Shown here: positions 31,265 to 41,045 of the stretch, one piece after another
Layout: the number at the start of each line of letters is the position of its first letter
How positions within the stretch are numbered: position 1 is the stretch's first letter
Assembly: GCA_958296065.1 (NCBI GenBank)
Contig: CATQHX010000025.1
Location: forward strand, 62,001-126,000
Reading direction: 5' to 3'
DNA length: 64,000 nucleotides
Source of the DNA: Vicinamibacterales bacterium
GTDB lineage: Bacteria; Acidobacteriota; Vicinamibacteria; Vicinamibacterales; UBA8438
The notes under the pieces: model-generated
Told to the model about the DNA's origin: nothing
What the model saw: the letters and a program-made list of their open reading frames with translations, nothing else
Database searches by the model: none
Position numbers and translations under genes: made by a program

Positions 31265-31991
31265 CTGACGCCCCTATATGTCAAGAAATGCTTAGGGGGC
31301 TCGTCGAGTTCGAGGCTTCCTTCGGAACCGCCGTCACAGAAACCGGCGTGGTTGTCGCCATACGGACGATCGTCGAACGTTGCACCCAGTCCCGACGTCA
31401 CCTCCGATGAGCGTCCGTATCGACAGGGGCGTGACCGACCCTGCGCGGGGCTCCGATGACTCCGCACCGCGAGCCGGCGTCCGGCCCATCCTTGCGCCTG
31501 CGCGCGGGGTCCTGGCGACCCTGACGGCTGCAGATACGGGCGACGACGACGATCCGTCCAGCCGCTGTCAATCCTCTCACAGCTCCTCGCGTAGCAACGG
31601 TTCAGCCATTGCCGCCGTGACCGCGCGCTCGGCTACCGCGCTACGCGAACGCCTGCAGGCGTCCGCTTCACTTGGTCTCCTGCTGCTCGGAACCAGGCGG
31701 GAACGACTGCGTTTCGGCGCCCTACCGCGAGCGGCGGCCAAAGGCAGCGAGCGCCTCGTCGGTAGCCGGATGTCGAGAACACGACCACGTCAGGCAGCTT
31801 CGGCGCACGCTGTCAACGGTCATTCAAAATTCCCCCACCCGCGGTCATCGAAAATTCCCCCACCCCTGGTTGAAAACATCGATGAAGTGAGTGCCTGTGG
31901 GGCTGTGGGCAGGCCGTCTGCGGCCTGTCCAAGGCGTTGTGGGCGCGTCTGCGCGTCCACATAGCCGGCAGCGTCCACAGGCTCCCATCGC

Positions 31992-34562: not shown

Positions 34563-34726
34563 TGGAAATGGCAAGTACAAAAGGGACCCCTGTGGCCACG
34601 TGAAAAGGGACCCCCCGTTGACGGGAGCCGTCGCGGGAATCGAAGCCGTCTTCGTACCGGGACGTCCCCGCACCCGGCTCGTTCAGTGCGTCAAAGGTGA
34701 GCTCCTCCTTCCTTGAAGAGTGGTTT

Positions 34727-34870
34727 CCGGCTGTCGGGCAAGATTGCCTGTGACCGTGCGCGGAGCCGGTGTCAAGGCCGCAGCCCCGCGTAGCGGGGGC
34801 GTCGCGCAGCGACGCGCCTTGACGCCGGTGAGCACACGGTCACACTGGTCGGCCCGACAGCGCGGGTTGT
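34727..34870. repeat. Complex inverted-repeat (multi-stem hairpin) element, copy A
   Basis: GCTGTCGGGC...TGTGACCGTG...CCGGTGTCAAGGC...[CCCCGC gta GCGGGG][GTCGC gca GCGAC]...GCCTTGACGCCGG...CACGGTCACA...GCCCGACAGC. Confidence 0.8.
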
Positions 34871-34948
34871 CGATATCCGTGCTCGACGCAGTTGAGCATT
34901 CTTGTCGAGCCGACGCGTGTTCGGCATCGACTACATTTGGCCGGCGCG

Positions 34949-35239
34949 CTAGCGGTCACGCCCGAAGCCCCTGGGCAGCTCGACAGCCTCGAGTGCCGAC
35001 AGATCCAGATCGCAGGCCTGTTCGAGCAGCTCCGCGGTCGCGGACCCGGCCAGCGATTCCGGCAACGCGTCGCGCCACTGCCGGTACTGTTCCTGCAACT
35101 CCAGGAGTGTCTGCACCGCGTCGTTCCACTGTTGTGGCCGCGACCTCCGGTCCGCCGGCCGGCGGTACCGGAGCCGGGATTCGCCGGCCTTGCGCCGCTC
35201 CCGGTAACGTGCCTGCCGCTCCGCGTTGGTCAGCGCCAC
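34949..35239 (-). CDS. Small hypothetical protein carried inside IS21 element #2
   Basis: ORF MALTNAERQARYRERRKAGESRLRYRRP...; basic N-terminus, helical C-terminus. Confidence 0.55.
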   Translation of the reverse strand: MALTNAERQARYRERRKAGESRLRYRRPADRRSRPQQWNDAVQTLLELQEQYRQWRDALPESLAGSATAELLEQACDLDLSALEAVELPRGFGRDR

Positions 35240-35406
35240 AAGTCAATCCTGCGCCGTTACGTAACGGAGGGGGAAGCGGTCGGCCGCGCGATCAAGGGGC
35301 AAGCGTCGTGACAGGCCCACCGCTCGGTCGTCGGCATCGGTCCACGAGCGGCTCCCCGGCGCCGCACTTCGGACAGTCGAACGCGGGCCGGCACGACTCG
35401 CCGGCG

Positions 35407-36198
35407 TCAACGGGGTCCCTCCTTGCCGGACGCCTGCGTCTGGTTCCGCTTTGCAGCCTGTAACCTGTAGCTGTTGCCCGAGGTCTGCAGTACCGTCGCG
35501 TGGTGGACGATGCGGTCGATGACCGCGGCGGCGGCCGTCGGGTCGAGGAAGACCTCGGACCAGCGGGCGAACGGCAGATTCGTCGTCACCACGAGGCTGC
35601 AGCGCTCGTAGCGCTGGCTGATGAAGCCGAACAACAAGTCGGCGCCGGCCTTGTCGAGCGGTACGTAGCCAAGCTCGTCGCAGATGACGACGTCAAAGCG
35701 GGCGAGCTGGGCGAGCTTGCGGGCCAGCCGGCCTTCCTGCTGCGCTTCGACGAGCATCGTGACCAGCTCGGCTGCGGTCACGAACCGCACCCGGTAGTCG
35801 TGCTGGCAGCAGGCCATCCCCAGGGCGATGGACAAGTGCGTCTTGCCCGTGCCGACGCCGCCGACGAACACGACGTTGGCGGCCTCGGCGACGAAGCGGC
35901 AGTCGAAGACCGCCAGCACCGCATCGCGGTCCAACGCCGGCTGCGCCTCGAAGGAGAAGGCGTCGAGCGTCTTCAGCATCGGGAAGCGGGCATCGTGAAT
36001 GCGGCGTTGGATACGGCGCTCCCGGCGTTCGGTCACCTCCAGATGCACCAACTGGGCCAGGTAGTCGGCCGGCGCCTGCCGCTGACGGGCGGCCTGCTCG
36101 GCCAGCGGCCGCCACTGCGCCGCGACCGTCGACAGGCACAACGTCTTCAGGTCCGTCTCCAGATGCGGGGGCTCGATAGTCGTAGTCGCCATCAGCAA
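35407..36198 (-). CDS. istB: IS21-family helper ATPase IstB (element #2)
   Basis: NVVFVGGVGTGKTHLSIALGMACCQHDYRVRFVTAAELV...VVICDELGYVPLDK. Confidence 0.94.
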   Translation of the reverse strand: MLMATTTIEPPHLETDLKTLCLSTVAAQWRPLAEQAARQRQAPADYLAQLVHLEVTERRERRIQRRIHDARFPMLKTLDAFSFEAQPALDRDAVLAVFDCRFVAEAANVVFVGGVGTGKTHLSIALGMACCQHDYRVRFVTAAELVTMLVEAQQEGRLARKLAQLARFDVVICDELGYVPLDKAGADLLFGFISQRYERCSLVVTTNLPFARWSEVFLDPTAAAAVIDRIVHHATVLQTSGNSYRLQAAKRNQTQASGKEGPR

Positions 36199-37721
36199 CC
36201 CCCTTCCACCAGCGCGTCATAGGCCGACAGCGTCGGGGCGGGCACCGTAATCTGCGCCAGCTCCGGGCGCACCCGGGTCACCGGCGGGCAGACCGGCGGC
36301 GGGCCGGCCTGCTGCTGCCGGAGGAGGAGCCGCACCGTCTCCAGGCGCGGCGAATGCCGTTCGAGCGCGGCGGCCACCGCGCGTTCGACGGCCGCGGCCG
36401 GGTACGTCTCCATCAACCGCAGCATCCGGACCCACTCCTGATCGGGCTTGCGCGTGTGCTTGGCCAGCTCGGCCCGCACCTGCTCCCACACCGGCGCCAG
36501 CCGCCAGCCGGCCAGCGCCGTCGCCTCGGCCACCGCCCGGTGCTTGCGTTCCAGCAACGGCAGCACGTGGAACGGGTCGAGGACCTTGGTGCCCCGGCTG
36601 AACGCCCGGGGATGCTCCGCAACCACCTCGGCGCCGACGGCGATCGCCACCCGGTCGTGATACAGCTTCACCCACACGGGCCGCCAGGCGTGGCGGACCG
36701 GCACCGAGTAGGTGACGTGGTCCACCCGCACATGGCCGAACTTGTCGGCCACCCGGGCGACGATGCGGCAGGTGGCGGGAAGATGCTCGGGCAACGCTCG
36801 CAGATGCTGCCGCTCCAGCGCCAAGGCTTCCTGCACTGGGCGCCCGTCGTCGAGGTGGCGCGTCGGCAGGTCGGCCTCCAGCTCGGTGCGGATCGTCGCG
36901 TTGAGCGCCGCCCAGCTCTCCACCGCCAGCCGCGGCCGGAACACCAGGTTCCGGACGTATTTGACGCCGTTTTCCACGGAACCTTTTTCCCAGCCCTTCG
37001 CCGGCGCACAGAACTCGGCCCGGAACGGATACGCGCCCCGAAACGCCTCGAATGCCTCGGTCTGCACCCGGTCCCGTCCGGCCAACACGTCCTTGACCGC
37101 CAGCGAGGTGTTATCGAGGACAACGCGGTCCACGACGCCCCGAAAGTACTTGAACGCCGACTCGATGCCGTCGAGCAGCGACTCGAGCCGCTCGACCGGA
37201 TACGCCTTGGCGAAGTACGCGTTCGAGAACGGCAGCGTCGCCACCAAGTACTTCACCTTGCACGGCGCCCCGGCGATGTCGGCCCACGACTCGCCGAAGT
37301 CGACCTCCATCGTCGTACCAGCAGCCACGCTGCGGTGGACGAAGGCCTCCTTCGACGTGACAGTCCTCCTCAGCGCCGCCACGTAGCGGCGCACCGTGCG
37401 CGGGGAGACCGCGCCGGCCAACGGCAACAGCAACCGGCGGATCCGCTTCGCGGTCAACTTCCGGTCCTCCCGCAGCCACTGCTCGATCTGGTCCCGCCAC
37501 GGGTCCAGGCTGCCGGCCCTCGGCGGCGACACCCGCACCGGCGGCGTCGGCCGGACTACGGCGCGGCGCACCGTCTTGACGTCCAGCTGCAGGCGCCGCG
37601 CAATCTCCTTCTTCGGTACCCCTTCCACCAGATGCAGGTGGCGGATCTCGGCCCACTGACTCATCCTGATCACCTCCGCGTCCTCCTGGCGATGTCGACG
37701 AGACGAACGTGTCTCGTCCAT
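36192..37721 (-). CDS. istA: IS21-family transposase IstA (element #2)
   Basis: HLVEGVPKKEIARRLQLDVKTVRRAV...MEVDFGESWADIAGAPCKVKYLVATLPFS... Confidence 0.93.
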   Translation of the reverse strand: MDETRSSRRHRQEDAEVIRMSQWAEIRHLHLVEGVPKKEIARRLQLDVKTVRRAVVRPTPPVRVSPPRAGSLDPWRDQIEQWLREDRKLTAKRIRRLLLPLAGAVSPRTVRRYVAALRRTVTSKEAFVHRSVAAGTTMEVDFGESWADIAGAPCKVKYLVATLPFSNAYFAKAYPVERLESLLDGIESAFKYFRGVVDRVVLDNTSLAVKDVLAGRDRVQTEAFEAFRGAYPFRAEFCAPAKGWEKGSVENGVKYVRNLVFRPRLAVESWAALNATIRTELEADLPTRHLDDGRPVQEALALERQHLRALPEHLPATCRIVARVADKFGHVRVDHVTYSVPVRHAWRPVWVKLYHDRVAIAVGAEVVAEHPRAFSRGTKVLDPFHVLPLLERKHRAVAEATALAGWRLAPVWEQVRAELAKHTRKPDQEWVRMLRLMETYPAAAVERAVAAALERHSPRLETVRLLLRQQQAGPPPVCPPVTRVRPELAQITVPAPTLSAYDALVEGGC

Positions 37722-37812
37722 CGATTCATCGCCGCAGGAACGCCATTCCTTGAGTGCTCAGGGGGTCCCTTTTCAGGTGGCCACGAGGTCCCTTTTCATG
37801 TTGCCACTACCA

Positions 37813-40867: not shown

Positions 40868-40917
40868 CGGTTCAATAGTCTGTGCTACGTCGCTTCCTGC
40901 GAAGGGTAGGTGCTCGT

Positions 40918-41045
40918 CTGTCGGGCGAGATTGGCTTTGACCGTGCGCGGGGGCGGTGTCAAGGCCGAGGCCCCGCGTAACGCCGCGCCCTGACGACGGT
41001 GAGCACACGGTCATGCTAGGAGGCCGGACCGCGGGTTGTCGGCAT
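40918..41045. repeat. Degenerate copy B of the complex inverted-repeat element
   Basis: CTGTCGGGCGAGATTGGCTTTGACCGTGCGCGGGGGCGGTGTCAAGGCCGAGGCCCCGCGTAAC...CTGACGACGGTGAGCACACGGTCA...CGCGGGTTGTCGGCATCCG parallels 34729-34881. Confidence 0.75.

Follow-up and report, generated by a model that had tools for sequence, protein, structure and literature searches.

The window analysed here is a stretch of 64,000 nucleotides in which an IS21 element, IS21 #2, occupies positions 34563..37812 on the minus strand. The element is bounded by 26-nt terminal arms and a 9-bp flanking repeat (GGTCGATCT), interrupts an IS110-family transposase gene, and contains istA (36192-37721), istB (35407-36198) and an accessory ORF (34949-35239). 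The accessory ORF, which also lies on the minus strand, encodes 96 amino acids with no Pfam match and a weak match to PHROG 10506. The subject of this report is a hairpin located 3' of these genes, at 34729..34862 on the plus strand, which we call the R1 strand of this copy. It scores 118.7 bits over its full length with the covariance model R2 described below. The hairpin lies between the left end of IS21 #2 and istB, as the initial annotation had stated, with the accessory ORF intervening.

The outer stem of the hairpin pairs GCTGTCGGGC (34730..34739, plus strand) with GCCCGACAGC (34852..34861, plus strand), a middle stem is formed around TGTGACCGTG/CACGGTCACA, and the inner stem is GCCGGTGTCAAGGC/GCCTTGACGCCGG. 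The apex consists of two small hairpins on the plus strand, CCCCGC-GTA-GCGGGG (34782..34796) and GTCGC-GCA-GCGAC plus flanking pairs (34799..34815), each with a GNA triloop. Every arm named in the initial annotation was found in the sequence, and RNA folding of positions 34717-34880 predicted the nested hairpin with its two apical hairpins at -105.3 kcal/mol (z -7.55; none of 200 shuffled sequences was equally good); the complement strand gave -97.3 kcal/mol (z -7.19). The element is strongly structured and non-coding, and its structure far exceeds the needs of IS21 ends. It is not an already catalogued Rfam element: up to E 5, no Rfam family, including 6S RNA, matches the hairpin.

The same annotation regarded the structure as cargo of IS21 and asked whether it is always borne by IS21, which turned out not to be the case. 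In the genome from which the window derives, a blastn search detected four identical copies, which are copies of IS21 #2, and about 17 further dispersed ones, and a covariance model of the hairpin core detected 20 copies. The dispersed copies outside IS21 rule out an IS21-specific structure, and an origin as IS21 cargo does not hold, since the same hairpin is present in dispersed miniature elements (MITEs) in this genome and in integrative elements throughout the order. The core model also found copies in 17 of the 40 related genomes searched.

Several other IS21 elements carry the hairpin. IS21 elements related to IS21 #2 bear it in two further genomes (G002 and G021), and so does an IS21 with a different IstB in a third (L079 in G013), the accessory ORF of which is 87% like that of IS21 #2. 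Because this relative belongs to a different IS21, the accessory ORF and the hairpin may be exchanged together, as a cassette, among IS21 elements. In two IS21s of another subfamily (L303 in G468 and L162 in G035), the hairpin is located at the istA/istB junction with its R1 strand in the sense of the genes; given this opposite orientation, part of the copies may have another function or no function at all. In the window's own genome, partial copies were also observed: an IS21 relative (88%; L044) contains the right half of the hairpin only, and another locus (L043) contains the left half only, beside an istA fragment.

Many copies in the same genome and in genome G006 form the middle of a MITE of about 280 bp. 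These MITEs have sharp ends (TGTCAAC...GGCAACA) and target duplications of 4-7 bp; duplications of at least 4 bp were found in 11 of 16 copies, compared with 4 of 240 mismatched flank pairs. The left end of one MITE (L032, TGTCAACGGTCACC) has 12 nt in common with the end of another IS21 element of the window, IS21 #1, at 31811 (TGTCAACGGTCATT); the match to this end reads TGTCAACGGTCA. With sharp IS21-like ends and target-site duplications, the carriers can be assigned to the IS21-type MITEs. They resemble IS21-end MITEs in their size of about 280 bp, their ends and their 4-7 bp duplications, but differ in that the interior is a promoter-like hairpin rather than an istA/istB remnant. A non-LTR-type retroelement had been considered in view of what seemed to be 5' truncations and of a 12-bp duplication within a CRISPR repeat, and was ruled out by the G006 copies, which have two sharp ends and IS21-like termini.

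A second, diverged copy in the window, at 40916..41033 on the plus strand (47.5 bits with the full-length model R2, see below), has MITE-like flanks (TGTCAATAACGAG ... GGTCGCCAACG). Elsewhere in the genome, CRISPR-like arrays with a period of about 73 nt and one common repeat were observed on three contigs of G000: C11 at ~112-118 kb (L038), C3 at ~96-106 kb (L039, L044) and C15 at ~124-130 kb (L046). A MITE hairpin copy is located inside a CRISPR-like repeat, with GGTGCGTGCCCC on either side, and IS21 #2 copies or relatives adjoin the arrays.

Since the hairpin resides in IS21 #2 as well as in MITEs of about 280 bp flanked by target duplications of 4-7 bp, it might be a neutral palindromic repeat of the MITE or REP type, or a terminator-type structure of IS21, with no role as a promoter, as the initial annotation implied. 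We consider this the least probable of the alternatives discussed here. As an account of the whole family it is contradicted by the integrative-element contexts described below, although it could apply to single IS21 or MITE copies; most genomes of the order contain the hairpin in few copies, which are sited in integrative elements rather than in IS21. It is also opposed by the covariation and by a promoter signature that does not vary across deep divergence, both described below.

For the order-wide search, we used R2, a covariance model of the full-length hairpin of about 135 nt. Copies in other families, which lie in integrative elements, have the full architecture; GGCCATCACG/CGTGATGGCC is one example of their outer stem. 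Within Vicinamibacterales, 71 of 162 genomes had R2 matches, and these belonged to 46 of 86 genera; matches were rare elsewhere in Acidobacteriota. The named records with the hairpin comprise Acidobacteria MAGs, a Luteitalea among them, and a single MAG that is labelled Cyanobacteria; phage records gave no match.

Genes of integrative elements were present in 38 of 40 hairpin contexts and in none of 20 random 10-kb regions of the same genomes; as the marker genes were drawn from earlier loci of the same family, this test shows that new loci share these neighbours and does not imply that the hairpin is present in every integrative element. The markers were serine recombinase, tyrosine integrase, DUF932 or transfer-linked genes, and four unnamed families designated FTERQ, DDARD, KIL and ITPSI. 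In all 36 contexts that have a recombinase, integrase or ITPSI gene, such a gene lies 5' of the R1 strand and antisense to it; at one locus (L241) this holds for ITPSI and KIL, whereas the integrase itself points the other way. ITPSI genes start no more than about 60 nt from the hairpin base. On the opposite side of the hairpin, FTERQ or DUF932 reads toward it in most contexts. One hairpin-bearing element contains type IV secretion system (T4SS) genes for a VirB11-type ATPase, a coupling protein, VirB8, TrbL and TrbI, which identify it as an integrative conjugative element (ICE). Small elements with DDARD, FTERQ, the hairpin and a serine recombinase look like mobilizable elements.

FTERQ, which is predicted to consist of a winged helix and an alpha/beta domain, and DDARD are conserved at L146, L154, L157, L281 and many other loci. 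Neither has a Pfam or NCBIfam family above the cut-off, and both are candidate transfer or replication proteins. An assignment of FTERQ to known relaxases was rejected, since searches of Pfam, NCBIfam and PHROG gave no match and Foldseek gave a winged helix only. The hairpin is also unlikely to be an attP site because it is intact and internal, between FTERQ and the recombinase. Its constant place between FTERQ/DDARD and the recombinase would suit a relaxosome or replication site, namely an oriT or a single-strand origin to which an element-encoded protein such as the winged-helix FTERQ would bind, with the conserved TTGAC...nAnnnT serving as a protein-binding motif; hairpins are typical of oriT and of single-strand origins (sso), and the winged helix predicted in FTERQ agrees with this. 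We nevertheless regard this explanation as unlikely, because DUF932-type loci retain the hairpin without FTERQ close by and because the motif matches a sigma70 promoter in spacing and key bases and is set in an open-complex fold.

The fold itself is under selection. Among 17 diverse homologues, both sides changed in 30 of 48 pairs; both-side changes occupied 110 cells, compared with 37 +- 5 in shuffled alignments, so the homologues contain the compensatory substitutions by which the initial annotation proposed to judge the structure. The covariation score was 0.361, compared with 0.139 after shuffling and at most 0.085 in slid controls. One of the alignments used in the analysis (A4) had been fitted to the covariance model.

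The 3' arm carries a second conserved feature. All 67 distinct elements have a TTGAC-like -35 box followed after 15-17 nt by nAnnnT, where the search for the -10 permitted three spacings and five variant -35 boxes were added after the sequences had been viewed. The arm reads TTGA or TTGCAC in 62 of the 67, and TGGAC, TTAAG or TTGTAC in the other five; the spacing is 16 nt in 57 elements, 17 nt in 9 and 15 nt in 1. With the spacing fixed at 16 nt, nAnnnT occurs in 53 of 62, compared with a chance expectation of about 5%, and at any other offset it occurs in at most 6 of 67. In the window copy, the -35 box TTGACG (34819..34824, plus strand) is in the paired inner stem, and the -10-like CACACT (34841..34846, plus strand) is at the edge of and inside an unpaired internal loop; the 3' arm of the outer stem would then correspond to positions of about +1 to +10 in the predicted promoter.

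The motif nAnnnT places A and T at positions -11 and -7. A pairing profile calculated with DNA parameters predicts that -36..-12 is paired, except for a small loop around -22 and -19, that -11..-2 is largely open (0.35-0.59), and that +1..+9 is paired again (0.88-0.97). This predicted profile matches the shape of an open promoter complex. Sigma70 reads A-11 and T-7 as single strand and T-12 in the duplex; in the hairpin, the conserved A-11 and T-7 lie in the loop, and T-12 is absent from most of the -10 hexamers. The conserved -35/-10 signature with a predicted unpaired -10 thus points to a promoter-like function, which goes beyond what the initial annotation had proposed.

Branched hairpins of similar appearance directly adjoin the 3' ends of IS110 transposase genes on Azospirillum oryzae plasmids (L164, L165). 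In spite of the similar apex, these matches were not accepted as members of the family, as their E values are 1e-5 to 1e-4 and they have no -10 at 15-17 nt.

Both boxes exist in duplex DNA too, so the signature might belong to an ordinary double-stranded promoter along R1, with the hairpin being accidental or regulating it as a cruciform. At the istA/istB junctions of L303 and L162, such a promoter would indeed face istB. In integrative elements, however, it would run away from the recombinase or ITPSI gene and antisense to its neighbours; moreover, T-12 is mostly missing, and the covariation of the outer stem would go unexplained. We therefore judge an ordinary promoter highly improbable.

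Alternatively, R1 may encode a structured RNA that binds RNA polymerase or acts in trans. 6S RNA is a hairpin whose internal bubble mimics an open promoter, and the same mimicry, the strong RNA folding of the element and a mild excess of G.T over A.C (93 to 54) would all fit an RNA of this kind. On the other hand, RNA energies do not favour R1 (30 of 67 elements, compared with 42 of 67 with DNA energies), and the family differs from 6S RNA in its fixed cis position upstream of mobile-element genes as well as in having no Rfam match even at a permissive threshold. Because an RNA of this type also leaves the place and orientation just upstream of the recombinase or early genes unexplained, we consider it quite improbable.

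Our preferred explanation is that the family probably represents single-stranded-DNA promoter or priming hairpins of integrative conjugative and mobilizable elements, which work like the Frpo/ssi sequences of conjugative plasmids. The use by RNA polymerase, the identity of R1 as the transferred strand and silence as duplex are all inferred. According to this model, R1 would be single-stranded when the element enters a recipient and would fold so that the TTGAC -35 is double-stranded, the nAnnnT -10 is exposed in an open bubble and the downstream duplex is formed by the outer stem. Host RNA polymerase with a sigma70-type factor would then transcribe toward the 5' side of R1, using as template the 5' arm, which would be the template side of the downstream duplex. 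The transcript would be sense for the recombinase/integrase or ITPSI-KIL genes, which all 36 contexts have on the side of the predicted output, and could drive early expression of these genes, prime second-strand synthesis, or both. In the predicted RNA of copies in ICEs and integrative mobilizable elements (IMEs; e.g., L155, L156 and L161), the outer stem reads GUGAUGGCC. At some loci an open frame (VMAG...) begins at the outer stem, which might permit leaderless translation.

Frpo folds on the transferred strand, rebuilds -35 and -10 elements and drives the leading genes before second-strand synthesis (PMC9849209, PMC11541004), and it is required in vivo for early expression (PMC9849209; see also PMC11541004). 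The Frpo/ssi sequences of F and ColIb-P9 are long imperfect hairpins with -35 and -10 on one strand, in template-strand orientation upstream of conjugative early genes, and the family described here is alike in these respects (PMC9849209, PMC11541004). In particular, a stem-loop with -35 and -10 is predicted in 67 of 67 elements, and the conjugative or mobilizable setting and the template orientation are seen in 38 of 40 contexts and 36 of 36 orientations, together with the T4SS genes; the window copy, lying in IS21 #2, does not have this setting. The family differs from Frpo/ssi in being GC-rich and about 135 nt long, with a two-hairpin apex and GNA triloops, in adjoining recombinase/integrase or ITPSI genes in ICEs and IMEs of Acidobacteriota, and in its capture by IS21 and MITEs. 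When the F leading region was searched with R2, the best hit (14.9 bits, E 0.09) was outside the Frpo region, and no sequence or model link was found; the F leading region contains a DUF932 gene, as do some hairpin loci.

A related comparison can be made with sso sequences: those of the F type and of many rolling-circle (RCR) plasmids are recognised as promoters by the host RNA polymerase (PMC4595007). The RNA-polymerase-dependent sso of rolling-circle plasmids and sso1 of ICEBs1 are folded, orientation-specific single-stranded DNA (PMC4595007), as the hairpin is predicted to be, although ICEBs1 sso1 has three stem-loops and resembles that of pBAA1. RNA made from the hairpin may prime DNA synthesis in the same way as for the RNA-polymerase type of sso (PMC4595007).

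As for the window copy, we found no integrative-element marker around it, and the output side of the hairpin in IS21 #2 holds no IS21 gene; it would fire outward through the left end of the element. The best explanation is that it is a hairpin captured by IS21 #2. It is possible, though we lean somewhat against it, that this copy keeps a function for IS21 #2 rather than merely riding along.

A large survey sought further cases of Frpo by BLAST with five known sequences and by a consensus search in a few islands (PMC11541004). Our literature search, which covered few subscription papers and preprints, found no description of such a family in Acidobacteriota. To our knowledge, no family of this kind has been described in this phylum. 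We rate the family as separate from Frpo/ssi, residing in different elements, with capture by IS21 and MITEs as the new twist. Taken as a whole, the proposition that an undescribed, covariance-defined family of single-stranded-DNA promoters controls the integrase and early genes carried by conjugative and mobilizable elements of Acidobacteriota, and that its capture by insertion sequences and MITEs has produced dozens of dispersed chromosomal switches transcribed only when the DNA is single-stranded (e.g., during transfer), appears to us about evenly balanced between true and false.

Gene expression from transferred single-stranded DNA before second-strand synthesis is known mainly from the Frpo/ssi sequences of enterobacterial plasmids. 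The present family would offer 67 natural variants of one promoter, spread order-wide in soil bacteria, with which the requirements of RNA polymerase at single-stranded promoters become testable, and it leads us to expect synthesis of the recombinase or integrase itself upon entry. It would also give a handle on the mobile elements of a phylum in which conjugation has hardly been studied, and conditional promoters would have a new means of spreading through their capture by IS21 and MITEs.
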